Part shown: positions 1,839-43,941 of the stretch, one piece after another
How positions within the stretch are numbered: the first letter of the stretch is position 1
Layout: every line of letters begins with the position of its first letter
From: an uncultured Fidelibacterota bacterium
GTDB lineage: Bacteria > Fidelibacterota > Marinisomatia > Marinisomatales > TCS55
Assembly (NCBI GenBank): GCA_902615915.1
Contig: CACMQQ010000002.1
Coordinates: forward strand, 124,001-188,000
Direction of reading: 5' to 3'
DNA length: 64,000 nucleotides
Notes under the pieces: generated by a model
Told to the model about the DNA's origin: nothing
Database searches by the model: none
The model's input: the letters and a program-made list of their open reading frames with translations, nothing else
Position numbers and translations under genes: made by a program

Positions 1839-2983
1839 ATTACTTTTTTAATTTTTTTGCCCTTCAATAGGGTTTGCATTGACATAAGAAAATTAATTAG
1901 TGTCAAATTTATATCAAGATTTAGTTTCAAAGCACTCAAAGTATGTTCAATTAATTTGTTGATTTCAACAAGATCTGCATTGGGATAATTTTTGTTAAAT
2001 TCTCTAATTTTGTTTTCAATTCTTTTTAACTCCAAGCTATGGGATTCATATTCGCTTCTAATTTTCATAGCATGATTGAACCAGGCTTGAGCTAATTGAA
2101 AATTCAAATAATATTCATCAGGGTTCCTGTATGCTAACATACTAAATTCCTTTAAAAACAATTCCCAATTATCTCTTTTAAAAACAACTATTTGCTCAAT
2201 AAACTTTTGAGTCTTACGAAAGATAGAGGTATTAGAAATATTAATTAAACTGCTTGCAAATTGTATATTTCCAAATGAAAATGATGCTATTTCTGTAGCT
2301 TTCTCTTTATCAATACCCTGGTCTTCTAAGTACAATTGAACACTAGAAATGTCAATGTCTGAAAAGAAGTATTTCTGACATCTGCTCAAAATTGTTGGTA
2401 ATAATTTGTTCTTAAAATCTGTCGTTAGAATGAACAAGGAGTTTTCAGGTGGCTCCTCTAAAATTTTCAATAATGAATTTGCTGATTCACCTGAGCCTAC
2501 ACAAAGAAGATGAGCATCAAAAATAATAAATACTTTTTTACCTGCATGTTCTAACTTTAAAAAACTGTTTTTTTTTATGTCTTTAATAGAGCTTAGTAGA
2601 ATTCTTTGCGCGCCAGGAATGTTTATTTTGTAAAAAGGGTTTTCAGATTTTTTGTTTAATGAGTCAAGTAAAATTTCATAATTATCCTGTGATAAGTTTC
2701 CAATACTGTCTTTTTTTTTGTTTTCTTTTTTTGATGCAGGAAGAGGAAATGTCATAAAAAGATTAGGGTGTTGGAGAGATTTAAACTTAATGCATGATTC
2801 GCACGAATAACAGGATGTATTTTCTTTATTAAAGCAATTTAAAATTCTTGCAAACTCTAAAGCAGCCCACTCTTTGGCGCATCCTTGGGTTCCGTAAAAT
2901 AGATAAGCATTAGATAATTTATTTAAACGAACAGACTTTAATAAAACACTCCAGATATTCGGCTGAAAATCTATGATATTCAT
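1835..2983 (-). CDS. holB: DNA polymerase III delta' subunit (clamp loader)
   Basis: A 382-residue clamp-loader subunit of the AAA+ fold. The N-terminal P-loop region is degenerate (YGTQGCAKEWA in place of GxxGxGKT), as often in delta'. The CysxxCysxxCys zinc module lies near residues 58-65 (CYSCESCIKF). A Walker B-like segment (KVFIIFDAHLL) and the SRC motif (LPTILSRCQ) near residue 200 are clear. The C-terminus is the usual helical collar domain. It lies between the upstream EnvC-like gene (4-nt overlap) and metG (4-nt overlap), so the three are probably co-transcribed. Homology to gamma/tau is possible in principle, but the size and degenerate P-loop favour delta'. Confidence 0.88.
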   Translation of the reverse strand: MNIIDFQPNIWSVLLKSVRLNKLSNAYLFYGTQGCAKEWAALEFARILNCFNKENTSCYSCESCIKFKSLQHPNLFMTFPLPASKKENKKKDSIGNLSQDNYEILLDSLNKKSENPFYKINIPGAQRILLSSIKDIKKNSFLKLEHAGKKVFIIFDAHLLCVGSGESANSLLKILEEPPENSLFILTTDFKNKLLPTILSRCQKYFFSDIDISSVQLYLEDQGIDKEKATEIASFSFGNIQFASSLINISNTSIFRKTQKFIEQIVVFKRDNWELFLKEFSMLAYRNPDEYYLNFQLAQAWFNHAMKIRSEYESHSLELKRIENKIREFNKNYPNADLVEINKLIEHTLSALKLNLDINLTLINFLMSMQTLLKGKKIKKVI

Positions 2984-4179
2984 TTATTTCTTAACCAATC
3001 TTCAGGATTTAATTTTTTTCCTTGACCCCAAATTTCAAAATGCAATTGTGATCCATTTATTGACCCTGAATCTCCCATATATGCAATAACATCACCACTT
3101 CTTACTTGACTGTCTTCGGTTACTTCAATATTTGCTACATGGCTATATACAGTATAAAAACCACTGCCATGATCAATGATAATGGTTGTACCAAATCCCC
3201 TTAGGAACGTTATGGTGGTTACAACACCGCCAAGAACTGATTTTATTTGAGAGCCAGGTTGGCCTTTTATGTCAATTCCAGTATTTTCAGTAGTTGTTTT
3301 TAATTTTGGATTCCATTGCAATCCAAACTTTGATACCACCCTACCTTGAGCAGGCCATGAAAGCTGTCCTTTTAATTTAGGAAATTCTTTTGTTTGTAAT
3401 GCCAATTGCTGTTTTCTGATTCTTTCTTCTCTCTCTACTCTTGCAATGTCATCTTGAATTCTCCTAATAATCTCTTCCAATTGTCTCATTCCAGCTTGCT
3501 TTTCAGTAAGGTAAGATTTTAAATCTTTTTGGCTTTGCCTTATTTTTGCTAATTCTCTTTGCTCATTCTTTTTCTTTAATCGCAAAGAAGACAAAGCTTT
3601 CTCTCTTTGATTTTTTAAATTTATTTTTCTCCTCAAGGCAGTTTCAAGTTGAAGCTTTTGTTTACCTATTTGTATAAGCAAGGATCGGATTGCATTATAA
3701 GTTTTTTTATCAATCTCAGAGATTATTTTGAGGTATTTTGCTCTATAGATTGCTTGTCTCCATGAAGTTGAGCTTAAAACTTTTTCCAAAGATGATGAAT
3801 CACCTTTTTTATATATTTTCTTTAGCCTTTTAGAATATCTTAATCTTAGTTCATCTAATTCTTTTTCGCTTTTGTTTATCTGACTCTCGGTTCTTTTAAT
3901 ATCTTTTAATAAGTTTGACTCTTCCTTTTTTATTTCCTTAATTAATCTCTGAATTAAGGAAATTTCTTCAGATAAGCTACTAACTTTTCTTACGGAGGAT
4001 TTTTCTTTTCTACTTTCAGATTGTATTCTTTTTTTTGTTCTTTCAATTTCTTCTTTTAAGGATTCAATAGCAGAATTTTGAATTTTTAATTCTTTTTCAA
4101 ACTCTTTTTGAGTTTCTTGTCCGTAAAGGAATTGGACAAATATCATAAAGCAAATAAACGTTTTTAAATTAAAATACAT
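2980..4179 (-). CDS. EnvC-like murein hydrolase activator (coiled coil + LytM/M23)
   Basis: Periplasmic protein of about 399 residues. A signal peptide (MYFNLKTFICFMIFVQFLYG) is followed by a long Lys/Glu-rich coiled coil to about residue 270 and a C-terminal LytM/M23 domain. In the LytM domain the usual HxGxD zinc motif reads NTGID, so the first zinc histidine is replaced by Asn. YSHV and LHFEIW keep the later histidines. EnvC/NlpD-type proteins with degenerate sites activate amidases and do not cut peptidoglycan themselves, so that is the inferred role. I chose the ATG at 4179, which begins a clean signal peptide. An upstream in-frame TTG at 4203 would add eight residues. The gene is divergent from the cyclic-nucleotide-binding gene. 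Confidence 0.85.
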   Translation of the reverse strand: MYFNLKTFICFMIFVQFLYGQETQKEFEKELKIQNSAIESLKEEIERTKKRIQSESRKEKSSVRKVSSLSEEISLIQRLIKEIKKEESNLLKDIKRTESQINKSEKELDELRLRYSKRLKKIYKKGDSSSLEKVLSSTSWRQAIYRAKYLKIISEIDKKTYNAIRSLLIQIGKQKLQLETALRRKINLKNQREKALSSLRLKKKNEQRELAKIRQSQKDLKSYLTEKQAGMRQLEEIIRRIQDDIARVEREERIRKQQLALQTKEFPKLKGQLSWPAQGRVVSKFGLQWNPKLKTTTENTGIDIKGQPGSQIKSVLGGVVTTITFLRGFGTTIIIDHGSGFYTVYSHVANIEVTEDSQVRSGDVIAYMGDSGSINGSQLHFEIWGQGKKLNPEDWLRNK

Positions 4180-4807: not shown

Positions 4808-5922
4808 GTGATCAAAAAAATTACATTCAGTTAATTTATCGAATTATAGTCGGCTTAATATTAGTTTGGTTTTTATCAACTATTTGGCCATACATATCAA
4901 ATGTAATTTTAATGTTAGTTTTTGCATTTCTTTTTACAACAATTCTTTTATCAAGCGTTGATAATTTAGAAAGGAAGATAAACAATAGAGGCGTTTCCGT
5001 ATTGCTAGTCGTTATCCTTCTGTTGGGTTCCATAGGTGGTTTTTTGGGAAGTTTTATTTCCCAAATTTCAAAACAGGCTATAGATTTTTCTAAACGTGTT
5101 GATAAAGAAACGTTAACTATTGAATTTGCAAACTTAGTTGAAAAATTTACATCCTCACTTCCAAATTTTTTAAAAACTGGACAATCTTCAAATGAGGATT
5201 TTGCTTCAAAATTAGCTGAATTTACACAAACCGTTTTGGGTTCCCTTGCTTCAATGGCTGGAGCTGTTGGAAATTTTATGTTTCTTGCAACTATGATATT
5301 TATTTTTACGATCATTCTTTTAGCAGAGTATCATGTTTTTAGAAAATCTTTAGTCAGCATGATACCGAATAAATATTTTGAAATTGGCTTAAAGCTTATT
5401 TTTAATATAGAAAAATCGGTATCTAGCTATCTGAAAGGACAATTTTTATCTGCTAGCAGTGTAGCTGCAATGTCAATTGCAGGGCTTATCATTTTAAATT
5501 TAGCTGGTGCTAATTTAACATTAATTATTTTTATAGGTATAATAGCTGGCCTATCAAATCTTATTCCACTAATTGGCCCCTTCGTTGGAATGGTACCAGC
5601 TATCCTAATATCATTTATGAACAATATTGGCAATGATGCTTCAACTGCGCATATGCTCTTTGGAGTGTTGCCTTCGCCTTTTTTTATATTTGATATTATT
5701 TTGATGTTTCTTGTTGTTCAGCAAATTGAGGGAAATCTTATAACACCCACCTTGGTCGGTAAAAGCGTTGGGCTGCATCCAATGCTAGTAATGATTTCTC
5801 TTTTAATAGGAGGTACTTTATTGGGCCCACTTGGTATGCTCTTTGCAGTACCTGCAAGCGGTATAATAAAAGTAATAGTTAAAGAGGTTGCTTTCGTTAG
5901 ACAAAATGCTCAATATCTTTAA
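4804..5922 (+). CDS. AI-2E family (PerM-like) inner-membrane transporter
   Basis: A 372-residue polytopic protein with about eight hydrophobic segments: paired helices at residues 10-55, one at 65-90, one at about 155-175, then a C-terminal bundle from 210. It has the family features FIGIIAGLSNLIPLIGPFVG and the near-C-terminal PLGMLFAVPASGIIK. Family members have been linked to export of autoinducer-2 or to sodium/proton exchange, so substrate assignment is uncertain. It starts within the stop codon of the upstream gene (ATGA) and ends 6 nt before the stop of the convergent gene. The coupling to a cyclic-nucleotide-binding protein is the notable context. Confidence 0.88.
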   Translation: MSDQKNYIQLIYRIIVGLILVWFLSTIWPYISNVILMLVFAFLFTTILLSSVDNLERKINNRGVSVLLVVILLLGSIGGFLGSFISQISKQAIDFSKRVDKETLTIEFANLVEKFTSSLPNFLKTGQSSNEDFASKLAEFTQTVLGSLASMAGAVGNFMFLATMIFIFTIILLAEYHVFRKSLVSMIPNKYFEIGLKLIFNIEKSVSSYLKGQFLSASSVAAMSIAGLIILNLAGANLTLIIFIGIIAGLSNLIPLIGPFVGMVPAILISFMNNIGNDASTAHMLFGVLPSPFFIFDIILMFLVVQQIEGNLITPTLVGKSVGLHPMLVMISLLIGGTLLGPLGMLFAVPASGIIKVIVKEVAFVRQNAQYL

Positions 5923-5928
5923 TTCTGT

Positions 5929-7746
5929 CTATTCTTCAATTTTAAATAATTTGTAATCAATAAAGGTTAATGTTATGGTGGTTTTTTTGTCATAACTATA
6001 AATCCAAAGCATATTTTCATTTGAATTAGATTGTGAAATTATTTCTTTGGGTTTGCCCATAATGTTTTCTACTTCTGAAATGGTCATTCCTAGAACAATT
6101 GGCTTAATTGATTTTTCTTTTGCGATGTCTTTCAACAAAATATCTTTTATTCTTTTTTTTGTCTCATAATCACTTTTAATGGAAATTTTCTTTTCAAGTT
6201 TGTCTAAGATACTTTGGTTCGATTTGCTTAAACCTCCTGCCAATTTTTTTGATTCCTCGAGAGCATAAAGAATAAAATTTATCGATTCTTCATTGCTCAA
6301 AGAATCAGCCATTGATAACAAGTCATATGCAATACCTTGCTCAAAAACACCAACTTCAAGAGCTAAGCCAGGATCAATTTGAAGCGCTTGATAAAAATAT
6401 TTTAATGCAGCGTTATTTAAACCGATCCCGTATAGTTTTTCACCTTTATCCATAATATTTACGACCTTAATTCTTTTGACATGGTGTGATATTTCAGGAT
6501 ACCAGCCAGCAACATAAGAGATATGCGATACAGCAGAATCTCCAAACCCATCATTTAATAATATTTCAGATTTTTCAACTTCTCTAAAAGCAATCTCTCT
6601 AAGTCTTTCATCAATGACATCTTTTAGTAAAGTATCAGATAATGTTTTTGCTAATAGATATTTTTCAACTGCTTGATTAGTTTTACCTCCTTTATCAAAA
6701 CTCATACCTTGTCTAATCAGTTGATAAGGTATCTTTCTTTCGCTTTCGATAATGAGTTTTTTTGCTCTTAAAATGTTCGAGTGATCAGGATTTTCATCGA
6801 CAAACTCTTCTAGTAAACGCTTTGCTGCAATATAATCTCTAGTGAAATAATATCTTTTACCGATATCCCCTTTTGATTTTTCACCTCCAAAAAAAGCTGA
6901 TGCTGTAATATATAAACCTACATTTTGAACTTTATAACTTTTTATGGGCGAAAAATTGCTTTGGTCATTTATATTTTTGATATCACTTGAAGTATATTTT
7001 AAATCAACTCCAATTGTAAAATTATTATTTAAATCAGAATCGATAATATATCGAGCTCCAATTGTAAACGATTGCGCAGGGCCAAAACCACTTAATTTTT
7101 TTTGATCTTTGTAGAGCTGTGAAAAGGCATATCCATAAGTATATCTATAATTTGTATACCAGCTATCAAACCATTGTAAAATCAAAGATTGACTCCATGA
7201 TAACTCGAATATTTTAGAATTGAATTTTGAATTTGATTTCCAATTTTCATTAATGCTAGACCATCCTTCAGGTACTTTTGAGGGCAATAATAAAGATGAA
7301 TATCTAAAATTAATCCCACTATGCATATCTAACCAACTATTGCCAAATATGTAATAAGCTAAGTTTGTCTTTAAAATGTCAAGATCTAGATGATGATTGA
7401 TTCTTGATGAAATATTTCCTCCATCAAATTTCTCAACATCCTGTTCGTATGTCATCCAATTATCATTTAATTTGCCCAATCCTAAAGCTCCTCCACCTAA
7501 ATTATAAGCAAAGCCATATCGTAATTCAATTGGTATGAAATATATTGGTTTTTTAAATTCTCTTGAGCGAAATATTCTGTCTAATAAATATCCTTTTTCA
7601 TATTTTTTTAAATAGTCTTCTTCAATATCAAAAATATTAAAAATTAACGATTTTGTAGAATCGTTTGCGGAACCTAGAGCGCTTAATATGGTTACATTAA
7701 TTAAACATATTATTATCAACTTTGATTTAATAAAATATTTTAACAC
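5929..7746 (-). CDS. Secreted barrel/TPR protein with C-terminal BamE (SmpA/OmlA)-like domain
   Basis: A 605-residue protein of unknown function with a GTG start and an N-terminal signal peptide (hydrophobic residues 8-25). Residues about 50-290 have alternating aromatic and polar strands (WLDMHSGINFRYSS, SFTIGARYIID, VGLYITASAFF) typical of an outer-membrane barrel. Residues about 295-540 are helical with TPR-like repeats (AAKRLLEEFVDENPDH, AALKYFYQALQIDPG). The last 55 residues look like the SmpA/OmlA fold of BamE (VLGMTISEVENIMGKPKEI then strands). I infer an envelope role, but no single family name fits the whole chain. It converges on the permease gene and diverges from the DUF4159 operon. 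Confidence 0.7.
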   Translation of the reverse strand: MLKYFIKSKLIIICLINVTILSALGSANDSTKSLIFNIFDIEEDYLKKYEKGYLLDRIFRSREFKKPIYFIPIELRYGFAYNLGGGALGLGKLNDNWMTYEQDVEKFDGGNISSRINHHLDLDILKTNLAYYIFGNSWLDMHSGINFRYSSLLLPSKVPEGWSSINENWKSNSKFNSKIFELSWSQSLILQWFDSWYTNYRYTYGYAFSQLYKDQKKLSGFGPAQSFTIGARYIIDSDLNNNFTIGVDLKYTSSDIKNINDQSNFSPIKSYKVQNVGLYITASAFFGGEKSKGDIGKRYYFTRDYIAAKRLLEEFVDENPDHSNILRAKKLIIESERKIPYQLIRQGMSFDKGGKTNQAVEKYLLAKTLSDTLLKDVIDERLREIAFREVEKSEILLNDGFGDSAVSHISYVAGWYPEISHHVKRIKVVNIMDKGEKLYGIGLNNAALKYFYQALQIDPGLALEVGVFEQGIAYDLLSMADSLSNEESINFILYALEESKKLAGGLSKSNQSILDKLEKKISIKSDYETKKRIKDILLKDIAKEKSIKPIVLGMTISEVENIMGKPKEIISQSNSNENMLWIYSYDKKTTITLTFIDYKLFKIEE

Positions 7747-20759: not shown

Positions 20760-21959
20760 TTAAAGGGAATCATAAAGCTCATTAATAATCATGTCATATT
20801 TTTTTCCAATTAATTGAATATCAAAATTTTTTCTAATATGATTAATTGAATTTTCAGATAGGGATCTATATAATTTTTTATTGTTAATAATATTAATTAA
20901 TATTTTTTCCAACTCAAATGAGTCATTAGGTTTAATCAAAAAACCATTAAAACCATTATTTATAGCATCAGATATTCCTCCAACATTAGTGCCAATAACA
21001 GGCTTACCACATGCATTAGCTTCCAGAAAAGTTATACCAAATCCTTCACTGTCTCCTTTTTCATCCGTAGGCATTGATGTCATAATGTATAAATCACATA
21101 AATTATATATGATTTTTTTTCTTGCCTCACTTATATAACCTAAAAAATTAATATTTTTTTCTAGATTTAACTTTTTTACATAATGTTTTAATTCTTGTTC
21201 ATAGGACTTATCTCCAGTGCCAGCAATAAGATAAAATACATTTGGATTCTTTCTTATAATAGGTTTTAATGCCTTGATAACTGTGCGATGTCCTTTTCTC
21301 TTGACAAGTCTTGATAAGGTTAATAAAATTATATCAGTTTCTCTATATGTAAAATCATTAATAAATAATTTTTTATTAATTGGGTGAAAATTTTTAAAAT
21401 TTACAAAATTTGGTATTACATCGATATTTAAATCATTTTCGTTCAATGATTCTGCAACCTTCTTAGTATATTGGCTTACAGCAATAATTTTATCGGAACA
21501 CATGAGTGTTTTTTTAAAACTACTTACTCGATTTTTATATTTGAGAGAATTTAAACGCGTAACTTCTAGGCCATGTAAAACAGTCACCAATGAGAATCGG
21601 AAAAAATTTTTATAAATGAAAATCCCTTGAGACAACTCCCAATTTGTTGAAATAATTATTGGCTTATTTTTATTTTTTAAATATTTAAAAATTGAAAAAA
21701 AAATATACCATTTTTTAAAAAATGCCCAATCTCTACCCGCAATCAAATGGATTTTATATGGCAGATTTTTGATATCAAAAGATTTTTTAATACCTCCATG
21801 CTTTTTTAAATAAACAGTTACGTTATAACTTTTACTATGAAAATAATCTGCAATTTCACGCGACCATGTAGCAATACCTCCTTTCAGCGATGGTCTAAAT
21901 TCTTCTGTAACAATACAAATATTTTTTTTATTTATTTTTTTATTTTTAAATATGACCAA
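20760..21959 (-). CDS. Glycosyltransferase family 4
   Basis: A 399-residue GT-B fold enzyme that transfers a sugar from a nucleotide donor to a growing glycan at the cytoplasmic membrane face. The N-terminal acceptor domain has EFRPSLKGGIATWSREIADYF. The C-terminal donor domain has LTLSRLVKRKGHRTVIKAL and the E-x7-E motif in EGFGITFLEANACGKPVIGTNVGG. The only conventional start is a TTG at 21959, inside the end of the Wzi-like gene; the Shine-Dalgarno there is weak, so the start is uncertain. It is the last gene before the terminator. Donor and acceptor cannot be inferred. Confidence 0.88.
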   Translation of the reverse strand: MVIFKNKKINKKNICIVTEEFRPSLKGGIATWSREIADYFHSKSYNVTVYLKKHGGIKKSFDIKNLPYKIHLIAGRDWAFFKKWYIFFSIFKYLKNKNKPIIISTNWELSQGIFIYKNFFRFSLVTVLHGLEVTRLNSLKYKNRVSSFKKTLMCSDKIIAVSQYTKKVAESLNENDLNIDVIPNFVNFKNFHPINKKLFINDFTYRETDIILLTLSRLVKRKGHRTVIKALKPIIRKNPNVFYLIAGTGDKSYEQELKHYVKKLNLEKNINFLGYISEARKKIIYNLCDLYIMTSMPTDEKGDSEGFGITFLEANACGKPVIGTNVGGISDAINNGFNGFLIKPNDSFELEKILINIINNKKLYRSLSENSINHIRKNFDIQLIGKKYDMIINELYDSL

Positions 21960-23338
21960 AACCGTATTGAAGTTCTTGATTGAATTCCAGCGTTAAAATA
22001 TTTTTGATTTTCAAAAGTAATTGTTAAAAAAGTGAGCTTGCTTAATTCAACCTCAAAACCAAAATTCAAATCATAAAGGAAGCTCAGGGGGGGAGTCGGA
22101 AAGCCAGGATGTTTATAATCGTAATTAAAATTGCCATCTTTATCTTCCCAAGGATTATCAAATGGAGTTTCTAATCCATTATTTCCTTTTATCAAGTAAG
22201 AAAAGTCAAGGAAGGCTTTGCTAATTTTTGAATTAAATAATTGTGTGTATCGAAATCGATAATTGATGAAATCATTCCCAAAAAAATGACCAATTGGAAA
22301 CCCATTGTGAGTATAAATATGAGAGGGGTGGAATGATTGATAAACTTGATCTAGGATATTTGAATATTCAGCCCAAATATTTGAAGAACTGAAAGGAAAT
22401 GATGTTTGTTGAAAACCTAGCATATAACCATATCTGTTTAAATAAAAGGCATTTTCTTGATGAAAATTTACATCATCAATTAAAACTTCTCCATATAGCC
22501 TTGAAGTTGAATTAAATTTGAATGAAAATCCTGAATATAGAAAAGCGTTAATTCCTTTATCGGTGCTACCAATATTCTCCCAAGACCATAAACTAAAGGG
22601 ATTTAAAAAATTTAAATTTATTGATTCATTTACACCTGATGAAATTATAGCTTCACCAAAGGTTAGATTTATTTTATCTGAGCTATAGCCTATAGTATGC
22701 ATATAAAGATATCTTTTATGATCAGCTATTGAGTCTAAGCTGATAAGAGCTATTTTACTTTTTAATTTTTTAAAATTTGCTTCAATAGAAAATTGATCAA
22801 AAGGTCTCGAATAATCACTAAAAAAAATTCTTGATTCATTACCATAGCCTTCATACAAAAAATCTCTCCCAACTTTTAAATTATATTTTAAGCTGTCAGA
22901 GTAATTATAATATTTAAAGTATGCTTGATTTGTATACATCGTGACGTCTTTGATTGTCCTAACAAATCCTCTCATGGCATGTTTTCTGTCATTTGCAAAA
23001 AACATCGAGTTAACTATTTCAAAATTTGAAAATGAAAATTTATAATTAGTCAATAAACCATTTCCAATCAAATCTGATTTTTCTTGAGGGATAATTGTTT
23101 TAGAATCAGAAGATAGCTTTATAAAAAGTCCAAAATGGTGTAATTCGTTATTTTGAGGATTTTTTCTTTTTTTGTAGTCTATCCACAAGTTTAAAGAATC
23201 TTTAGGTGTGGTTGAAAATTTATTTTTTGAGGATAATTCCCAATTTTCAATCTCCTGTAACCCAGTATAAAAAAACTGGCCATTGCAAAAATGGAACAAA
23301 AATAAACAAACTTTGATTGTATTTTTTATAATATTCAT
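21932..23338 (-). CDS. Outer-membrane barrel, Wzi-like capsule assembly protein
   Basis: A 468-residue protein with an N-terminal signal peptide (LFLFHFCNG) and a chain of amphipathic strands throughout, ending in an aromatic C-terminal strand (SIRFWSYLKIKK). The segment INLNFLNPFSLWSWENIG and the overall layout resemble Wzi/AlgE-type capsule-assembly barrels. The diagnostic WWGPG...SNN motif of the family is not present here, unlike in the second barrel at 42385-43941. It may attach or guide surface polysaccharide. It is followed by a GT4 gene with a 28-nt overlap. Confidence 0.6.
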   Translation of the reverse strand: MNIIKNTIKVCLFLFHFCNGQFFYTGLQEIENWELSSKNKFSTTPKDSLNLWIDYKKRKNPQNNELHHFGLFIKLSSDSKTIIPQEKSDLIGNGLLTNYKFSFSNFEIVNSMFFANDRKHAMRGFVRTIKDVTMYTNQAYFKYYNYSDSLKYNLKVGRDFLYEGYGNESRIFFSDYSRPFDQFSIEANFKKLKSKIALISLDSIADHKRYLYMHTIGYSSDKINLTFGEAIISSGVNESINLNFLNPFSLWSWENIGSTDKGINAFLYSGFSFKFNSTSRLYGEVLIDDVNFHQENAFYLNRYGYMLGFQQTSFPFSSSNIWAEYSNILDQVYQSFHPSHIYTHNGFPIGHFFGNDFINYRFRYTQLFNSKISKAFLDFSYLIKGNNGLETPFDNPWEDKDGNFNYDYKHPGFPTPPLSFLYDLNFGFEVELSKLTFLTITFENQKYFNAGIQSRTSIRFWSYLKIKK

Positions 23339-34591: not shown

Positions 34592-35400
34592 TTTTTTAAG
34601 TATTTATTTATAAAATAAAAATGTGAACTTTTGGCATAATTATATAATTCTTTACCACTTAATTTTTTTGAAGCAGTGTGCGAATTGTGCTTGATCAATA
34701 AATATGGTATATAAAAAATTTTACATCCTACCTTCTTTGAAATTTCTGCAGTTGAGAGTTCCTCGCAAAATAGTTTAAAATTATCATCTAACCAGCCACC
34801 GCTATCAAAAAAATATTTTGAAAATATCATCGCTGATCCATGAATAGCGTAAACTTCTTGAGTTTTTTGGTTGTTATGATTTGATTTAAAGTTTTTAAAA
34901 CTTTTAAAAACTTTTAAAAAAATTGATATATAATATGATTTAAAAAATAGATTCCAATAAAATAATCTAAACTTGCTCATAGGTTTAATCATAAAAGGAT
35001 TGAGATTCTTATTTTTCTCATCAATAATTTTAGCTCCTATGACATGGTAGGTTTTACTATCTAGGCTATATAGTTTATTGAAAAAATTAACATCATCAAT
35101 TAATATATCATTATTACAAACAATTGTCCATTTTGCTTTTTTCTCTTTCAATTCTGCTAAGCTTTTTTTTATAGCTGGCCAGTAAAAATAGTTTTTTTTA
35201 AAAGGGACAATTAGTGTTTTTAAGCTTGAATTAATTACAATTTTATTTAATTCATTATAAGATTTTTTCGTTGATTCATTATCAATAATAACAACAAATA
35301 CGCTTTCTGAATTTTCACATTTTTCAATAGAAGCTATTAAATCTCTTGTGGGATTGTGATTTTTAAAATTAACAGTAAGTACTAAGGTTTTTAATTTCAT
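34588..35400 (-). CDS. Glycosyltransferase family 2 (rhamnosyltransferase-like)
   Basis: About 270 residues, GT-A fold. It has TLVLTVNFKNHNPTRDLIASIEKC at the N-terminus, VIDNEST, WTIVCNNDILI (the DxD-like metal region), and the later AIHGSAMIFSK and FKLFCEELSTAE motif with Glu-Glu. The start is the ATG at 35400 (MKLKTLVLT), which overlaps the wzy TGA by 4 nt; a GTG 36 nt upstream would add an unrelated tail. It transfers a sugar to the lipid-linked repeat unit. Confidence 0.85.
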   Translation of the reverse strand: MKLKTLVLTVNFKNHNPTRDLIASIEKCENSESVFVVIIDNESTKKSYNELNKIVINSSLKTLIVPFKKNYFYWPAIKKSLAELKEKKAKWTIVCNNDILIDDVNFFNKLYSLDSKTYHVIGAKIIDEKNKNLNPFMIKPMSKFRLFYWNLFFKSYYISIFLKVFKSFKNFKSNHNNQKTQEVYAIHGSAMIFSKYFFDSGGWLDDNFKLFCEELSTAEISKKVGCKIFYIPYLLIKHNSHTASKKLSGKELYNYAKSSHFYFINKYLKK

Positions 35401-36632
35401 ATTTTTAATTTTATTATAAAATATACTATCACCCACGAAAATAATATACTATTGTAATGAAATATGCTAATTAACGGAGAATAAATTGTGAATGAATAAA
35501 ATATTGACATTGGAATGAAGCCGTCAAAATTATTTTTTCTTTTTTTGTCAAATACTAATTGGAAAATTAGTCCAATGAAAAAAGAGATCAAAAGTGACCC
35601 GATAATAGAGAAATCGCTAACCAAAGCTCTCAATGCAGTAAAAATATTTGTTGAAACATCTTTATTTATATAAACAGGTAAATAAAAACCAAGTTCTCTT
35701 TCTGTTATATTTAACAAATTTAGAGGTCCTGCAAAAGTTGAAAATAACGTTTGTGGTGTAAATATTTTCTCATAACTGTCGAACCAAAGCGTAAATGCAG
35801 ACAAATATCCAAAAAGATATGCTTTCATCCTAAGGATTAAATAATCAAATACAATTGGATCTAAGCCTTGCCTAAGCCATTGAACAAACACAAATAAAAA
35901 TAAAAAAAACAACAAAGCAAAAAGTGAAGATAGAAAAATCTTATAACTGTGTATTTTTTCTTTAAAATTGAATTGATTATTTAAACCTGAAATAAAAGAA
36001 GAAAAAAATAAAATAAATCCAATTAATATGCTTGTTCTAGAGCCTTCCAAAATTCCAAGAGCTATGCATATTGCCAATGGTATAAAGCAAAGAAATTTAC
36101 TTTTGAACGTAACTTTAAAATTAGATAAAATGATTCCTGAGAGTAAAGCTCCAGGATATATTAAATATAGACTATATTTTATTAATATTGGATAATAAAG
36201 TTCTCCGCTATACCTATCAATAGATATTAAATTAGGAATTGATAATATCCCTGAGTAAGAAGAAAAACCTTCATAAATATTGATAGAGTAAATTAACAAT
36301 GAAATAATACCGCACATGCTGATAAAGTTTATGATTAAAAGTGATAGAAAGAAATTTTTGTAACCTATATTTTTATTTTTTAGTTGAATTATTGATTTTT
36401 TAAAAGTCACTTTAGTAGCAACTAAACTTCCACATGATAGCGTAATTACAAAAGTTGCTATATACCATATTCCATAAACTCCAATATTAAATTCAGATGC
36501 AAAAAGAATAGGAGTAACTAAAAAAAATAGCCAAAATAATGAAAAAAAAGCACCAGGGGAGTACCAAGTGCCAGTTGATTTTTTTGAAATAAGTGCTGAA
36601 AAAAAAACAATACCTAAAGGTAGATATAACAT
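35397..36632 (-). CDS. O-antigen repeat-unit polymerase (Wzy-like)
   Basis: A 411-residue polytopic membrane protein with about 12 hydrophobic helices and a larger periplasmic loop near residues 260-320 (FVQWLRQGLDPIVFDYLILRMKAYLFG). This topology fits oligosaccharide-repeat-unit polymerases, which lack conserved sequence motifs. The position directly after wzx and before a GT supports it. It would polymerise lipid-linked units at the periplasmic face under Wzz control. A second polymerase/ligase candidate is at 48803-50101. Confidence 0.78.
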   Translation of the reverse strand: MLYLPLGIVFFSALISKKSTGTWYSPGAFFSLFWLFFLVTPILFASEFNIGVYGIWYIATFVITLSCGSLVATKVTFKKSIIQLKNKNIGYKNFFLSLLIINFISMCGIISLLIYSINIYEGFSSYSGILSIPNLISIDRYSGELYYPILIKYSLYLIYPGALLSGIILSNFKVTFKSKFLCFIPLAICIALGILEGSRTSILIGFILFFSSFISGLNNQFNFKEKIHSYKIFLSSLFALLFFLFLFVFVQWLRQGLDPIVFDYLILRMKAYLFGYLSAFTLWFDSYEKIFTPQTLFSTFAGPLNLLNITERELGFYLPVYINKDVSTNIFTALRALVSDFSIIGSLLISFFIGLIFQLVFDKKRKNNFDGFIPMSIFYSFTIYSPLISIFHYNSILFSWVIVYFIIKLKI

Positions 36633-37913
36633 CTATAAAATAAATCTTTTATGATATAAATAATATATCAGACAAAAAAAGCAGTACGATGAAGCTGAAC
36701 ACAAAGATGTATAGGCAGTTGCTATGATGCCAAATTTTGGTAGAAAATAAATATTCCCTATCACATTGATTAACACTGAAAAAGATATAAATATTATCAT
36801 CATGTAAGTATTTTCTTTGAGTTCAATTATTTTATGTGCTAACAATGATAATTGCCATAAAACTCCTGTTAGAATTAAAATAGACATAACATCTATATAA
36901 TCCTTTGTTAAAACAGGTATAATAATTTTTATTAAACTGAAAACACTTTCCTTATAAAAAACTAAAATAAACAATGCTAAAAGTACAATTATGAAAATTA
37001 ATATTATGCTAATGTTTATTAAGATTAGTGCCTCTTTCTTCTTATCGTCATTCCAGAGTTTGGTTATTCTAGGATGTATTGCAAGGGTTAATGGGAGTAT
37101 TAAAAATGAAAAAGCTTTTGTTGTCAATTCGTTTAGACTTGAGTAAATACCTAAAGAGTTAAAATCTAGATATCTTATAATAAAATACCTATCCAAAAAA
37201 ATTAATAATAAACCAATGCTACCCCAAATTGATATAGGAATTCCAAAACTTAGCCATTTTTTCAAATCTGATTTTTCTTTAGATCTGTAAACAATACCAA
37301 AATAATTTCTATTTATTAAATAGGATATAATAGTAGAAATCGAAAAAGACACCCCTACAAAAAACAGTAAATTATTTGCATCTAAAACATAAAAATTGAT
37401 GAAAATAACAGGCAATCCAATTGCTAAAATTGATTGAACAATTGTTAAGAAGAAAACCTTCTTAGGCATAAGAACGCTTTGAAATATAGATTTCAAAAAG
37501 CTAAACAAACCAATTGAAAAAATGACAAAGAAAGCTAATATTAAGTTACTAGATGGAAAATTTTTTATAAAACTAAAAGCCAGTATAATCGGAAAAGATA
37601 TAAAAACACTTAATATAAAATATTGTTCATAAATGATTTTTTTTTGATTTGCATTTTCGATATTGCCGTATCGTATCTGAGATTGATTTAACCATCCAAA
37701 ACAAATAGCTGTAATTAGATTAAATTGTGATAAAAGATAGCTATATCGACCAAATTCTACCGCTCCCAACATTCTTATAAAAAATGTTAAGAAAATTAAA
37801 CCTATCAACGCTGGTATTATTTTTGAAAAAGCATAAATTAATATGTCAAAGATAATTATTTTTTTCTTTTTTATATTTAAAGAAAAATTCAAAAAAGACA
37901 TTTTTGTAATCAA
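36633..37913 (-). CDS. Wzx-type lipid-linked oligosaccharide flippase
   Basis: A 426-residue, 12-14 TM protein of the MOP/polysaccharide-transport family. The N-terminus IIPALIGLIFLTFFIRMLGAVEFGRYSYLLSQFN matches the typical Wzx opening helix and GxxEFGxYS motif. It flips undecaprenyl-PP-linked repeat units across the inner membrane. The start may be the TTG at 37913, which overlaps the wzz stop as TTGA, or the ATG at 37901. It is followed immediately by wzy. Confidence 0.88.
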   Translation of the reverse strand: MITKMSFLNFSLNIKKKKIIIFDILIYAFSKIIPALIGLIFLTFFIRMLGAVEFGRYSYLLSQFNLITAICFGWLNQSQIRYGNIENANQKKIIYEQYFILSVFISFPIILAFSFIKNFPSSNLILAFFVIFSIGLFSFLKSIFQSVLMPKKVFFLTIVQSILAIGLPVIFINFYVLDANNLLFFVGVSFSISTIISYLINRNYFGIVYRSKEKSDLKKWLSFGIPISIWGSIGLLLIFLDRYFIIRYLDFNSLGIYSSLNELTTKAFSFLILPLTLAIHPRITKLWNDDKKKEALILINISIILIFIIVLLALFILVFYKESVFSLIKIIIPVLTKDYIDVMSILILTGVLWQLSLLAHKIIELKENTYMMIIFISFSVLINVIGNIYFLPKFGIIATAYTSLCSASSYCFFCLIYYLYHKRFIL

Positions 37914-39151
37914 ATGTATTTTTCTTTAAAATGTATTATAAAAATTGAAATCATTACTCCAATTATAAAAGACATTAAAATACTTAGGGCTCTTCTAGGG
38001 CTAGTAAGTTTTGTTGGAAAACTTGGACCGTCAATTTGTTGAATCATGTCGTCCCTACCTATTTCATCAATTTTAGCTTTTTCATATTGAGTTTTTAATG
38101 TAACATATAAGCTGTTTTGTAAGTCTACTTCTCTTCCCATTTCCTGAACCTTCATTTGCAATGAAGGGGAAGTTGATAAATTTCTATTATTTTCTCTGAA
38201 AAGTCTCAATTCTTTTTCCATTTCTTTCATTTCTGTAGAAACTTGATCTAACCTTTCTTCAATAAATTGTCTTTTTTGTCTAATTCTTTTTGTTTTAAGC
38301 TCTCTTTGTTTTGAGCTAGAATTTTGAATTAGTTCCCTTGCTAATTCCGAAGCAAATTTTGGCTCAAAACCATCTACATCAATATTTATAATTGAAGATG
38401 AGCGATCTTTGCTAATTTTTATCATTTGCTTTAACTTGTCGACAACTCTATTTTTTCTATCTTGTTTTTCAAATTTTGACAATCTATGCTCATATATCAA
38501 AATATTTTCTAAAGTTTCATTTTTATATTTTAAAGTTAAAAAACTTTTTTCTAACATTGATTCAAGCAGTGCGCCGCTTTTTAAAATTTCTGGATAAATT
38601 TCATCCCATGGAACTTTTCCTCCTATATTGAGAGGAATATTTATGCCTAATTGACTAGCAAAACCAGAAAAGCTATTTGATGTGTTTCCATTTTCTGAGA
38701 TTGGTAACACTTTAGATTTTGACGTATATACTGGTTTAGATACATAAAAAACAAAAATTGTTGTTAAAAATGTTGTTAATAATGGTAATAAAAAAATTAT
38801 AGCTAAGTTCTGTTTCAGAAGTTTAAAAAAGCTGTTCCATTTGTATACTATTTCTTCTTCATTTTTTTCTCTAGAAATGCCCTCCTTTTTTTGCAATAAT
38901 TCAGTTTGTCCTTTATTAATATTTTCATTATTAATTTCTAATTCATATTTCATTATATGCTTTGAAGGAATTTCACCAGATTTAATCCAACCTGACAATG
39001 TTTGAGGTGTAACATTAAAATATTTTGCTACTTGATAATTTCTTCTAAATCCAAAATGCTTCATTATATCCAATACAACTTCTTCTGCATTCTGAGTTTT
39101 ATTATTTTTTTTATTTATATTAATTATTGAAACCCTTTTATTTAATTCCAT
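37910..39151 (-). CDS. Wzz chain-length determinant fused to an N-terminal HTH domain
   Basis: About 413 residues (ATG at 39151; a TTG 15 nt upstream is possible). Residues about 22-72 form a CI-repressor-type helix-turn-helix (EEVVLDIMKHFGFRRNYQVA then YFNVTPQTLSGWIKSGEIPS). A charged linker leads to TM1 (about 114-137) and a periplasmic Wzz region with SKSKVLPISE, PWDEIYPEILKSG and a long coiled coil (about 260-360). A Pro-rich PTKLTSPRRALSIL precedes TM2 (about 387-408). No BY-kinase domain follows. Wzz controls polymer length; the DNA-binding module would face the cytoplasm. The frame is continuous, so this is a real fusion. It overlaps the propeller gene by 14 nt and the wzx start by 4 nt. 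Confidence 0.88.
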   Translation of the reverse strand: MELNKRVSIININKKNNKTQNAEEVVLDIMKHFGFRRNYQVAKYFNVTPQTLSGWIKSGEIPSKHIMKYELEINNENINKGQTELLQKKEGISREKNEEEIVYKWNSFFKLLKQNLAIIFLLPLLTTFLTTIFVFYVSKPVYTSKSKVLPISENGNTSNSFSGFASQLGINIPLNIGGKVPWDEIYPEILKSGALLESMLEKSFLTLKYKNETLENILIYEHRLSKFEKQDRKNRVVDKLKQMIKISKDRSSSIINIDVDGFEPKFASELARELIQNSSSKQRELKTKRIRQKRQFIEERLDQVSTEMKEMEKELRLFRENNRNLSTSPSLQMKVQEMGREVDLQNSLYVTLKTQYEKAKIDEIGRDDMIQQIDGPSFPTKLTSPRRALSILMSFIIGVMISIFIIHFKEKYI

Positions 39152-40337
39152 AGAGTATAATATCAAACAAGCTTGAATTATACGATTTAGTTGAGCCTAA
39201 TAAAATAATTTCACCATTGGGTTTTTCAAATATCGATGACCCCCAATCGTCATGGTCGTCTGTTCCAAAGGCTTGAGAATTTAATAGATTACCATTTGAA
39301 TCAATTTTTAATAAAAATATATCTGAATTTGTCTTATTTGAAATTTGATTTATTGTAGAGCCGACCAATAATAATTCATCATCATCTGTTACATGTAAAT
39401 TGAAATTATGATAGTCAAATGAGTTTGAATTGAATTTTTTTTGCCATTGGATATTACCTGCAGTATCCATTTTGATTACCCTGGGATTGTAACTATTTAC
39501 TTCGCTCGTAGAATTGATAGCGGTTACAATATAGACTTGATTATTTTTATTTGTTGATATGCTATAAGATGTTTCATTTATATCGCTTAAGTCAATTAAC
39601 TCTTTTTCCCATAATTTATTTCCATTTTTATCAGTTTTAATAATTAAAGCATTCTTGCTGCCTTTACTATACCTATCAATAGTAGCAACTATTAAAAAAC
39701 TTTCATCGTCTTGTTGAACAAAATCATTACCCCACTCGTGATTTGGAAAATCTTTATTTCCATATGCTTTTTGCCATATCAAATTGCCATTTACATCTAT
39801 TTTTAATAGGAAAATGTCGGTATTGCCTGACGATATTCCAGGACTGTTGGAGTGCCCTAAAATGCCGTACCCACCCTCTTTCAGTTCAATCACTGCACTG
39901 CCCACTTCCCACATTGATCCACCGTAATTTTTCTCCCATATAATTTGACCATGAAAATCTGTTTTTACCGCGTAAACTTGCTGTTCATTGCCAAAAGACC
40001 ATGAATAACCAACAAATAAAAAGCCTCCGTCTGATGTCGAAATGACATCTAAACCTTCAGAATTAGCATTCCCTCCAAAGGGTTTTTCCCATGATACAAA
40101 TCCATTATCATTAGTTTTTATAGCCCATAACTTCCTTTCTCCATCTATTTCTGGCTGTTGAGACCCGATGATTATTGTTCCATTATCAAATGGTGAATAA
40201 GTTGCGTTCCATCCATAATCATAACCTAATGTTCCGAAAATCCGATAATAAGAATTCTCAAAATTTTCTCTCCAATCATAGTTGGATCCAATATCATCGC
40301 ATGACAAAAAAATAATTAATAGAAATAAAATTTTCAT
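39138..40337 (-). CDS. Beta-propeller-like lipoprotein in the export operon
   Basis: A 399-residue protein with a lipoprotein signal (MKILFLLIIFLSC, Cys13 as lipobox). At least six repeats of about 50-60 residues follow, each with a core like D-I-F-L-L-K-I-D-x-N-G-N-x-x-W-x-K-x-Y-G; examples start IFLLKIDVNGNLIWQKAYG, YAVKTDFHGQIIWEKNYG and IIKTDKNGNKLWEK. The chain ends in the lone strand FDIILYGIK, which could close a propeller. No enzymatic motif is seen. It lies between wza (14 nt) and wzz (overlap), so a role in polysaccharide export is inferred. The family is known to me only as uncharacterised delta-60-like repeat proteins. Confidence 0.75.
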   Translation of the reverse strand: MKILFLLIIFLSCDDIGSNYDWRENFENSYYRIFGTLGYDYGWNATYSPFDNGTIIIGSQQPEIDGERKLWAIKTNDNGFVSWEKPFGGNANSEGLDVISTSDGGFLFVGYSWSFGNEQQVYAVKTDFHGQIIWEKNYGGSMWEVGSAVIELKEGGYGILGHSNSPGISSGNTDIFLLKIDVNGNLIWQKAYGNKDFPNHEWGNDFVQQDDESFLIVATIDRYSKGSKNALIIKTDKNGNKLWEKELIDLSDINETSYSISTNKNNQVYIVTAINSTSEVNSYNPRVIKMDTAGNIQWQKKFNSNSFDYHNFNLHVTDDDELLLVGSTINQISNKTNSDIFLLKIDSNGNLLNSQAFGTDDHDDWGSSIFEKPNGEIILLGSTKSYNSSLFDIILYGIK

Positions 40338-40351
40338 ATCGATATTAAAGT

Positions 40352-42241
40352 TTATTGAGAAGTTGAGTTAGCCAAAATAGCAATTGTTACCAAGGAAGAA
40401 ATTAATGAACTGAACTGCTGAAACCTGTCAGGTTTTACATCTAATTGGTTTGACGGTTTTTCACTAACGATTATTTTACTTCCTGGAGATAGATACTTTC
40501 TGCTATTGACTTTAATTCTATATGCTTCTCCATATGGTTCGATATACGTAACATGTTTTTTATCACCATAAGCTGTTAATCCTCCTGACAATTCAATATA
40601 TTCTTTAGCAGTTCTATCTTCTATCCATTGAATACTTCCCGGATTATGAACAGAGCCTTCAATTGTAACTGTGGCATTTACTGAATTTACAATGATGGAA
40701 TCCTCGGGTGTTAAAAGTATATTGCCATCAGAGGATCCAATAATTAAGGAGTCTCTTTTTATGATTAAGCTTGAGAGGCTAGAAAAACCTACTAATCCCC
40801 CAGCCCTTTCAATTAAGGTATTTAATGTTTCATTATTTCTTATTAGTGGATAATTACCAGGAGAACTAATGTAGCCGCCTATGTACACAGTGCTAATTTT
40901 ATTATAAGCATTGTAGAGCTGTATTGAAATAAAATCATATGGCTCAAAACTAAAGTCAATTTTATCAAAACCATTAAGCAAGTATGTTTCATAATTTATA
41001 TCATCAACTCTTCTAACAATTTCAATTTTTTTAATATTGGATACATTAATATTTCCAAAATCAAAAATATCTTCAAAAGTTAAATTATTAATCCAAGGTA
41101 TATCGAAGGGTTGTCTATTATCTATAGATATAGAAATGTTTTTAGGATTTATATTTTTTAATGGGACAACAAGGCTATCACCATTTAATAGGGTAATTTC
41201 GTCATAATTGTTTTCACTGACATGTAGGTTAAAACCATTGTTTCTATATAAATAAGTCTTATTTAAAGCATTGCGATCTTTGCCTCCAGAATAGTTCATA
41301 ATGGTTTTAATATTGTCATTTTTTAATTCATAAAAACCTGGCATCCTAACAGAGCCGGTTATGGATATCGTTTCACCCTTAGCTGGTACGACCAAATAAT
41401 CACCATCAGACAAATTAAAGCTATCAAAAGAGAAACTTTGTCCACTGATGATTGGGTATAAATCCAAAGAATCAATAGTTACACCATTTCTAATCAAATA
41501 AATTGATCTTAGTGAACCTGTGGTATTAATACCACCAGCAAGAATTATTACATTAAGAACGTTAATTGATGGACTAACAATATAGTTACCTGGAAACTTA
41601 ACATGTCCAGAAATATTGATATTAATATTTTTGACTGAACCAACAGAGATGTTTACAAAAGTTAATTGGGGTTTGGAATTAATAGTTGAATAAACTTTAG
41701 AAAATTTATCATTAACATACGATTTTGCTTCGGCAAGTGTCTTACCTGAAAGAAAAAGCAAGCCAACATTAGAAACATACACAGATCCATCACGTTGAAT
41801 AATTAATTTTTCATATTGTTCTACTTGGCCCCAAACAGAAATTATTACTTCATCTCCGAATCCTAAAACATAATTAGGTGTAATTTTTAAATTATCTAAA
41901 AAATTGATAGAATCACGTAGTGAAAAATAATTGTAACCAAAATCAACTAAAGTAGCAGTACTATCAATTTGAAATAATAGCTTAGACAATTTATTCATTT
42001 CAAATTTTAAAGATTTTATTTTTTCATTATAATACGAATCAATATCAGAAGGAGTTACTAACAACTTAACCGGCCCAACTTCACTTGATTCCATTTCGAT
42101 GCCTTCTTTAACTATATTATTTGCTTGTTGATCAATTTTTATTTTATCATATGTTTCCATGAATTTTTTTAATTCGTCCGGTGATTGAGCATTTAAAAAT
42201 GTGAAAAAAATAAGGTATAATATTAATTTAATTCGGTTCAT
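40352..42241 (-). CDS. Polysaccharide export outer-membrane protein Wza (SLBB repeats)
   Basis: A 629-residue secreted protein with a signal peptide (LILYLIFFTFLNA). The Poly_export domain is at about 125-205 (YVLGFGDEVIISVWGQVEQYEKLIIQRDG as the opening). Several SLBB repeats follow (for example GHVKFPGNYIVSPSINVLNVI, GSVRMPGFYELKND, GYISSPGNYPLIRN, GSVHNPGSIQWIED). The C-terminal hydrophobic stretch (FQQFSSLISSLVTIAILAN) may anchor it. It forms the outer-membrane channel for capsule or O-polymer export. It is longer than E. coli Wza (about 380 residues), like Bacteroidetes-type exporters with extra SLBBs. A candidate promoter lies upstream. Confidence 0.92.
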   Translation of the reverse strand: MNRIKLILYLIFFTFLNAQSPDELKKFMETYDKIKIDQQANNIVKEGIEMESSEVGPVKLLVTPSDIDSYYNEKIKSLKFEMNKLSKLLFQIDSTATLVDFGYNYFSLRDSINFLDNLKITPNYVLGFGDEVIISVWGQVEQYEKLIIQRDGSVYVSNVGLLFLSGKTLAEAKSYVNDKFSKVYSTINSKPQLTFVNISVGSVKNININISGHVKFPGNYIVSPSINVLNVIILAGGINTTGSLRSIYLIRNGVTIDSLDLYPIISGQSFSFDSFNLSDGDYLVVPAKGETISITGSVRMPGFYELKNDNIKTIMNYSGGKDRNALNKTYLYRNNGFNLHVSENNYDEITLLNGDSLVVPLKNINPKNISISIDNRQPFDIPWINNLTFEDIFDFGNINVSNIKKIEIVRRVDDINYETYLLNGFDKIDFSFEPYDFISIQLYNAYNKISTVYIGGYISSPGNYPLIRNNETLNTLIERAGGLVGFSSLSSLIIKRDSLIIGSSDGNILLTPEDSIIVNSVNATVTIEGSVHNPGSIQWIEDRTAKEYIELSGGLTAYGDKKHVTYIEPYGEAYRIKVNSRKYLSPGSKIIVSEKPSNQLDVKPDRFQQFSSLISSLVTIAILANSTSQ

Positions 42242-42384: not shown

Positions 42385-43941
42385 TTATTTAATGTTGATT
42401 GATTTAGATATCGAAAAAATTAGAGTTGTAATTAATCTAGTACCAGCAAGCTTTCCATCAGTAGAATCAACCGGATTGTTATTATTATCTACGTAGAAAT
42501 AATCTGGAAAACCTAAAAATGCTTCATATTGTTTTTCAAGATAGATACCATACCATGTATCATTGTAATTATATTTAGCTTCTAACGATAATTCAAATTT
42601 TACCTCAGCAGGTCTATGTGTCACTATCCCATGTCTTTCGTAATTAATTTTAGGTAGTATAATTAATTTATTAGATAAATATCCTAAGTATATTGTCCAA
42701 TCATCTGAGTCAGAACCTGAATGTGCACCCCATCTTCTTCCATAATATGTATTGAAATCATAATTATATTTGTTATACCATGTCCCTGAACCCGATGGTC
42801 TATGCCGCGATGAGTAGGTTGTCATTAGATTTGTCCATTCAAATCCCCATATCCAATTTTTATCTGAACCAATACCATAGTCTCTTATCCCAATTATTGT
42901 TGCCATACTATGGTCTGGCTGAGAAATTAAGTCAGCTAAGTACATCCTATTATCATTAAAGCCTAGTTCCATATATAGTTTTAGATTTCTCTTAGGCATG
43001 TTAAACGTAATGTATGTAGATATAGATTGATCCCAATAATCGTGACCACCTACAGTATATTCTTTCTTTAATAGATTATTTGTTAATAGACCCTCAAATA
43101 TAATTTTTCTTGCATCTGAAGCAGTCCATACGTAATTATTAATGGACATGCCTCCTGTAATATAATTTCTGCTAAATCCGAATGATATGTAAATTGGGCC
43201 ATACCAAGTAACTTGACCATTAAGGGCCGTATAATATATTGCATTAACACCTGTCTCTTCATTCAGTCTGCTAAAAGTATAGAGGCCGTATAAGCCTATA
43301 TTTTTTAATTTGATTTCATTTATTGTGCCAATTATTTGTGATGGCATTGGAGTTGTATTATTTGTCATTTGTAAAGTTGAATGAAAACCTGGCCCCCACC
43401 ATCTATTACCATCGTGCCATCCAAAACCAAAACCTTTATAATGAAAAAAAGCTAAAAAATTTCTAATGTTTTTATTGTTCCTTTTAAAGAAAAAATTTCT
43501 ATTCAACTTTCTGTCATTCAATACTTTAAATGTACCCTGACGATTTATATCTTTAGTGTCATAAAACTTTTCATTATAAATATAAGGCTCAATCATTAGT
43601 GAAAATAGCGGACTATTCAATGCCAGACTAAACGAATTAAATATTCCATATCCTTTAGAAAAATAGCGCAAATCCATATTCTCTTGATTTGGAGAATTAT
43701 TGTTTAGATAGCCTTCAGACAAAAAATTAAAATTTATTGACAAGGAATCTGTCGTGAAAAAAATGGGTCTAAAGCTATTTGAAATAAATGGAATCTTGTT
43801 ATCGTATTGATATTTTTCATTTAAAAAAATATAATTAGGATCTGCTGGCAAGAAGTTTTGCGAAAATAGAAAATTGAGAAAATATAAAATAAAAATATTA
43901 CTTATATAAAAAATTGGTTTAAATATTTGACGAGTAATCAC
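42385..43941 (-). CDS. Capsule assembly Wzi-family outer-membrane protein
   Basis: A 518-residue protein with a GTG start, an N-terminal hydrophobic signal (IFILYFLNFLFS) and a beta-barrel body. The Wzi family signature is clear near residue 180: WHDGNRWWGPGFHSTLQMTN followed by NTTPMPSQIIG. It ends in an aromatic/hydrophobic strand (LITTLIFSISKSINIK). Wzi-type proteins bind exported polymer at the outer membrane and support capsule attachment. It lies between the WecA-like transferase gene and wza. Confidence 0.85.
   Translation of the reverse strand: MITRQIFKPIFYISNIFILYFLNFLFSQNFLPADPNYIFLNEKYQYDNKIPFISNSFRPIFFTTDSLSINFNFLSEGYLNNNSPNQENMDLRYFSKGYGIFNSFSLALNSPLFSLMIEPYIYNEKFYDTKDINRQGTFKVLNDRKLNRNFFFKRNNKNIRNFLAFFHYKGFGFGWHDGNRWWGPGFHSTLQMTNNTTPMPSQIIGTINEIKLKNIGLYGLYTFSRLNEETGVNAIYYTALNGQVTWYGPIYISFGFSRNYITGGMSINNYVWTASDARKIIFEGLLTNNLLKKEYTVGGHDYWDQSISTYITFNMPKRNLKLYMELGFNDNRMYLADLISQPDHSMATIIGIRDYGIGSDKNWIWGFEWTNLMTTYSSRHRPSGSGTWYNKYNYDFNTYYGRRWGAHSGSDSDDWTIYLGYLSNKLIILPKINYERHGIVTHRPAEVKFELSLEAKYNYNDTWYGIYLEKQYEAFLGFPDYFYVDNNNNPVDSTDGKLAGTRLITTLIFSISKSINIK

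Follow-up and report, generated by a model that had tools for sequence, protein, structure and literature searches.

A predicted seven-bladed propeller lipoprotein encoded between wza and wzz in one clade of polysaccharide export loci of the Fidelibacterota

Introduction

How polysaccharides pass the outer membrane is only partly known in most bacteria, and the phylum Fidelibacterota, from which the DNA analysed here originates, is largely uncultured and marine. Additional partners of the outer-membrane polysaccharide export protein Wza were still emerging in 2022, as exemplified by the Wzp and EpsX barrels in the available parts of two papers (PMC9603273, PMC9601211). In a stretch of 64,000 nucleotides from an uncultured member of the phylum, referred to as the window in the following, a first-pass annotation had placed a lipoprotein of propeller build between wza and wzz. 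This locus raises the question whether the gene, hereafter PROP, belongs to the export system and, if so, in what role.

Results

The PROP gene and its operon

The reading frame of PROP starts with an ATG, is open throughout and encodes 399 amino acids (Table 1), and the plus strand across the same interval is packed with stop codons and closed. The gene follows the wza frame after 14 nt and overlaps wzz by 29 nt, counted from the TTG start of wzz, or by 14 nt, counted from an in-frame ATG, so the ORF coordinates confirm both the spacing and the overlap that had been annotated. The N-terminus, MKILFLLIIFLSC-DDIG, matches a short lipoprotein signal by eye, ending in FLSC with two acidic residues directly after the cysteine; the leader of the two other full-length orthologues reads ...LLFLLSC-EDIG. 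With this leader, the open frame and the seven-bladed model described below, the original description of a lipoprotein of propeller build between the two export genes holds. PROP is present in a single copy in its own genome.

Table 1 Features of the export operon around PROP in the window.
Feature	Position	Strand	Basis
Wzi-like outer-membrane protein	42385..43941	-	PF14052; 60% identical Wza neighbour in L044 (G028)
Wza, outer-membrane polysaccharide export protein (Poly_export PF02563 and several SLBB domains)	40352..42241	-	Domain scan
PROP, lipoprotein, predicted seven-bladed beta-propeller, 399 aa	39138..40337	-	ORF, orthologue leaders, linker repeats, AlphaFold2
Putative lipoprotein signal of PROP, residues 1-13; Cys13 followed by DD	40299..40337	-	By eye
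Propeller domain of PROP, residues 29-398, 7 blades x 4 strands	39144..40253	-	AlphaFold2 model
HTH-Wzz, chain-length determinant lacking a kinase domain, with a phage-repressor-like helix-turn-helix at the N-terminus; overlaps the PROP end	37910..39166	-	PF02706 + GNVR
Wzx-like flippase	36633..37913	-	PF01943
Wzy-like oligosaccharide repeat unit polymerase	35397..36632	-	TIGR04370 above cut-off

On the minus strand, the gene order is Wzi-like, Wza-like, PROP, Wzz-like, Wzx-like, Wzy-like and then glycosyltransferases; further downstream, genes for a putative methyltransferase, an initial sugar transferase, an acyltransferase and a CoA-transferase were recognised by eye. Within this long stretch of polysaccharide genes, there is a second gene for a Wzi-like protein (PF14052; window 21932-23338, minus strand). 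The model of Wza reached a pTM of 0.33 and was not used for classing the protein beyond a low-confidence C-terminal helix. The Wzz of the window gave no match to a kinase domain and carries near 38933-39070 (minus strand) an N-terminal helix-turn-helix (HTH) that resembles phage repressors, just below the Pfam cut-offs; it is unusual for a chain-length protein to carry a DNA-binding-like domain on what is presumably its cytoplasmic side. A Group 1-type Wzc system was rejected, as none of the four PROP-bearing genomes searched (87-93% complete) encodes a Wzc-type kinase above the TIGR01007 cut-off, with weaker P-loop relatives in all four. Consequently, synthesis and export may be coupled by other means here, and naming PROP or the helix-turn-helix for this task would be a guess.

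Linkage of PROP orthologues to wza and wzz

Of 245 genomes searched from the phylum, five carry orthologues of PROP, at six places: the window, G024, G028, G016 (on two contigs) and G126. The HTH-Wzz gene is next to PROP at all six, 8-20 nt on or, in the window, overlapping, and Wzx and Wzy then follow in the five places where the contig extends beyond Wzz, which assigns these loci to the Wzx/Wzy type. Three of the six contigs end inside PROP; in the remaining three, where the other side is readable, Wza was found each time, at distances of 14, ~149 and ~227 nt. The co-occurrence with Wza in related genomes that had been proposed as a check is thus borne out wherever the flank can be read. Wzi adjoins Wza both in the window and in G028.

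Two near-identities were noted among these stretches. The G126 stretch equals one of the two G016 stretches (C50) at 99.98% over 9,000 bp (L045 versus L047), although the two genomes are assigned to different families; transfer and misbinned contigs cannot be told apart here, and five independent loci rather than six were therefore counted. Similarly, over 7 kb a stretch of G158 matches the other G016 stretch (C12) at 97.9% (L046 versus L156), again between genomes assigned to different families, by recent transfer or misbinning. The other genome of the window's genus, 87% complete, contains neither PROP nor this Wzz (n = 1 genome).

In a wider search with one genome per species, at least 261 stretches were confirmed, and the best 79 loci were analysed. 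Five of these 79 are orthologous loci with 40-56% identity to the window copy, and the remaining 74 are relatives at 36% identity or below. In the flanking DNA read at these 74 loci, which ranged in length from almost none to 10 kb, the profile search (E up to 0.01) found neither Wza nor Wzz. The same profiles recovered Wzz in 33/33 and Wza in 25/33 control loci, the profiles having been built from rows among these controls. One distant relative among the best 79 loci from at least 261 stretches (L072) has a Wzi-like gene ~6 kb away. Hence, the outcome named beforehand as speaking against the annotation, orthologues scattered and unlinked to export genes, did not appear: scattering holds only for the relatives at up to 36% identity, whereas the orthologues at 40-56% all lie beside Wzz and are tied to the export operon.

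The broad propeller family is common and scattered. Many of its flavobacterial members (L070-L130) have a neighbourhood in common, which comprises MbnP, a MauG-type di-haem peroxidase and an LVIVD/MAM protein with a T9SS tail (for example L097:6204-7136, L103:162-1556 and L113:7070-9859). Among the 74 distant loci from the best 79 of at least 261, the MbnP cluster occurred in 29, the di-haem peroxidase in 27 and the LVIVD/MAM secreted protein in 39, where each cluster was named from one scanned representative and, being single-linkage, may mix families. This neighbourhood suggests a further dedicated role for this type of propeller. As the build is common across the family, the fold itself is uninformative on polysaccharide, and it is the operon that points to it. 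No relative was found on viral contigs, and PHROGs gave no match.

PROP and the Wzz clade

For the converse test, Wzz proteins of this type were collected (E up to 1e-25) and found in 23 of the 245 genomes. Of 28 Wzz stretches read outside the window (10 + 18), five carry PROP, one (G158) is cut off by the contig end within the 5' part of its Wzz gene, and the other 22 are without a propeller in a profile search with E up to 0.1; one of these 22 is another Wza-Wzz pair from the genome of the window itself. A maximum-likelihood tree of 29 Wzz rows groups G158 with the six PROP-linked rows in a single clade (support 100/100). Two label changes were counted on this tree because G158 was scored as lacking PROP, and a single gain of PROP at the base of the clade is the simplest history. 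A reading of PROP as a general Wza/Wzz subunit was rejected, since the gene is restricted to one Wzz clade in one phylum (5/245 genomes) and missing from the 22 other Wzz loci read. Clade-bound orthologues within a scattered broad family rather indicate a dedicated accessory of one lineage-specific exporter.

Several further features of export loci in the phylum were observed along the way. N-terminal phage-repressor or YdaS-like HTH domains are frequent in its Wzz proteins (PF07022 in 6/10 and YdaS in 6/10 scanned), with further HTH-Wzz at L042:6052-7506, L048:5709-6944, L049:7151-8371, L051:6023-7459, L157:5116-6312 and L172:1-903. Directly before a large Wza, five loci of family f7 have a frame of 255-273 residues starting with MSSIY[RK]KGRDG, which is possibly another lineage-specific export accessory (L159:1583-2392, L163:5408-6193, L165:2516-3322, L170:4875-5639 and L171:4957-5775). 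Between Wza and Wzz, L159 has a frame resembling a flavin oxidoreductase by eye (5161-6348) and L157 two short frames (2775-3697).

Predicted fold and nearest structures

AlphaFold2, given an alignment of three full-length and three partial orthologues, predicted 28 strands after the leader, i.e. seven blades of four strands (pLDDT 79, pTM 0.84), and the model matched many seven-bladed chains with Z >30. The motif [DN]xxG[NQFH]xx[WN] occurs six times in PROP (residues 76, 127, 181, 236, 291 and 346) as linkers of the type DxNGNxxW spaced 51-55 residues apart; in 20,000 shuffled versions of PROP this pattern, which was composed post hoc from PROP, averaged 0.18 copies and never exceeded four. 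Given 28 predicted strands, the six repeats correspond to the linkers that join the blades of a seven-bladed ring. The "about six repeats" of the first-pass annotation are thus present as inter-blade linkers and not as blades, and the structure prediction proposed for the blade count supported the propeller but gave seven blades rather than six.

Among solved folds, the closest is the CylK propeller (Z ~43.7, 21% identity), which is also the sole sequence match of PROP in the PDB (E 2e-9); YncE (Z ~34) and other propellers follow well behind. PROP shares the propeller with this Friedel-Crafts alkylating enzyme, which differs by an extra N-terminal part of ~250 residues: the alignment spans CylK 248-651 only, PROP consists of leader plus propeller, and membership among CylK enzymes was rejected. 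No Pfam family scored above its cut-off, including the propeller repeats DUF5122 (14.2 vs 27 bits) and BNR_2 (12.6 vs 31.4 bits). The best NCBIfam match was LipL53 (NF047494, E 4.6e-15), a family of Leptospira lipoproteins for which we know of no link to export; PROP shares the lipoprotein type and related repeats with it but, with 55.2 bits against a curated cut-off of 400, is not a member. BamB, the lipoprotein of the BAM outer-membrane machine, is an eight-bladed PQQ-type propeller, and identity with it was dismissed in view of the seven blades of the model and the absence of any PQQ family among Pfam matches with E up to 1.

Sequence conservation

Between L043 and L044, PROP showed a dN of 0.07 and a dS of 0.87 (Nei-Gojobori) and is under purifying selection. 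Wza is less conserved between the same loci (68% vs 89% identity), its dS being saturated in most segments. Identity inside PROP is mosaic, adjacent segments of 100 codons matching at 95% and 78% of nucleotides; recombination between clusters therefore adds to the conservation, which is not read as selection alone. The two clusters of the G016 bin are 85% identical in PROP over the shared 210 aa and 37-38% in Wzx and Wzy, a pattern more in keeping with a machine component than with a protein that reads a single repeat unit. Among the three full-length sequences, blades 2-3 are the most conserved relative to L043 (37/51 and 40/54 identical) and blades 5-6 the least (21/55 and 20/55), three being too few for naming a binding site. 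A conserved ring face was not apparent, the loop and strand classes being little apart, with fractions between 0.44 and 0.65 identical across the two close orthologues.

Discussion

We conclude that PROP is very probably, with a probability of about 0.85, a dedicated component of this export system, and that the exporter served is of one lineage-specific, apparently kinase-less Wzx/Wzy type. The evidence does not separate a scaffold, a polymer binder, an enzyme and a sensor. The idea that PROP is a mere passenger, i.e. an ordinary propeller lipoprotein picked up by a recombining capsule-type cassette with no export role, draws on the small number of loci, limited to one clade and mostly to one family, on cassettes that recombine or move and on the scattered broad family, but is very unlikely given that the same gene neighbours are kept at 40-56% identity to the window copy with low dN/dS and that a copy at this identity was seen nowhere else among the best 79 loci from at least 261 stretches or in the 245 genomes of the phylum.

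With regard to the role, we tentatively favour, at somewhat less than even odds, an accessory that is lipidated at Cys13, resides in the outer membrane and is docked on the outer-membrane end of the channel. In this mechanism, PROP would be lipidated, carried to the outer membrane and dock on Wza, possibly together with the adjacent Wzi, at the channel exit, where it might act as a scaffold or lid aiding polymer passage. The docking is proposed by analogy with propeller lipoproteins on outer-membrane machines, BtuG on BtuB and BamB in BAM. Our confidence is held down by the 22 related Wzz loci that manage without PROP, by the share of recombination in its conservation and by the three of six contigs that end inside it. 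As for localisation, BamD-like proteins in three of four genomes (G016, G028 and, by eye, G000) start with CSS or CAG at the presumed cleavage site, and PROP starts with CDD or CED. In enterobacteria, an aspartate after the cysteine can favour inner-membrane retention; to our knowledge, there is no lipoprotein sorting rule for this phylum. According to the available part of PMC5080379, acidic residues near the cysteine accompany surface export in Bacteroidetes, with C-x-K-(D/E)2, Q-A-(D/E)2 or SDDDD/SDDFE after the cysteine as minimal signals. The C-DDIG and C-EDIG of PROP have two acidic residues directly after the cysteine without a preceding K, Q or S, and these signal rules are those of Bacteroidetes and may not be those of the host.

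The same acidic residues would also suit a surface lectin or anchor, with the propeller, by itself or together with Wzi, keeping the exported polysaccharide attached to the cell. In its mature form, PROP contains 12 Trp and 18 Tyr and has a net charge of -23, the Wzi gene adjoins Wza in the window and in G028, and direct binding of exopolysaccharide by the Bap1 and RbmC propellers is stated in the available part of PMC10102183. We nevertheless regard this alternative as unlikely, since PROP is far more conserved than Wzx and Wzy between the two clusters of one bin, which is odd for a binder of a variable polymer unless a shared part is bound, and since a binding site could not be pinpointed.

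An enzyme that acts on the polymer (lyase, hydrolase or modifying) and would trim or edit the chain in the course of export is less probable again. The Foldseek matches of PROP include propeller lyases and sialidases as well as BtuG2, and CylK, whose fold is closest, is an enzyme too, but the Foldseek matches reflect general propeller likeness (TM ~0.5, 8-12% identity), CylK aligns only from residue 248, the N-terminal part with the mutated Y37 of the entry titles is absent from PROP, and no catalytic set was identified.

Comparably improbable is a sensor partner of HTH-Wzz, where the propeller would read the state of the polymer or channel in the envelope and the cytoplasmic HTH of Wzz would relay it to gene control. 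The linkage of PROP is tightest with HTH-Wzz (8-20 nt or overlap, versus 14, ~149 and ~227 nt to Wza), and a Wzc-type kinase above the family cut-off is found in none of the four PROP-bearing genomes searched; HTH-bearing Wzz proteins, however, occur without PROP too, their DNA binding is putative, and gene spacing is weak evidence. We likewise give little credence to the extended form of this idea, in which PROP and HTH-Wzz would make up a kinase-free export control loop with Wzz doubling as a membrane-bound DNA-binding protein.

The first-pass annotation had remarked that no named export subunit of this build came to mind. We know of none either, and a search of open-licence papers likewise found no description of a propeller lipoprotein in polysaccharide export; the available part of PMC12419801 holds no relevant statement on the subject. 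What is new is a lineage-restricted accessory on a known export system. Relatives of the same build occur in other envelope gene sets, and one solved case could guide others. Among known systems, the dedicated accessory proposed here resembles BtuG2 of Bacteroides, a seven-bladed propeller lipoprotein of the surface that caps the outer-membrane transporter BtuB as a lid, according to the available part of PMC10404256. BtuG2 differs in serving vitamin B12 import without polysaccharide export genes, and its likeness to PROP amounts to a TM of ~0.5 at ~10% identity. The propellers of the Vibrio cholerae matrix adhesins Bap1 and RbmC are linked to exopolysaccharide and bind their polymer (PMC10102183, available part), but they have eight blades, belong to secreted multi-domain adhesins and are not encoded in a wza-wzz operon. 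By analogy, BtuG2 on BtuB would be the nearest working precedent for PROP, and Bap1/RbmC the nearest polysaccharide precedent. Wzp and EpsX, as described in the available parts of PMC9603273 and PMC9601211, are extra outer-membrane partners encoded beside a short wza, just as PROP adjoins wza. Unlike PROP, they are 18-stranded membrane barrels, and the word "propeller" occurs in neither main text (PMC9603273, PMC9601211); a propeller lipoprotein wired into the Wza-Wzz operon would thus add a non-barrel partner of Wza.
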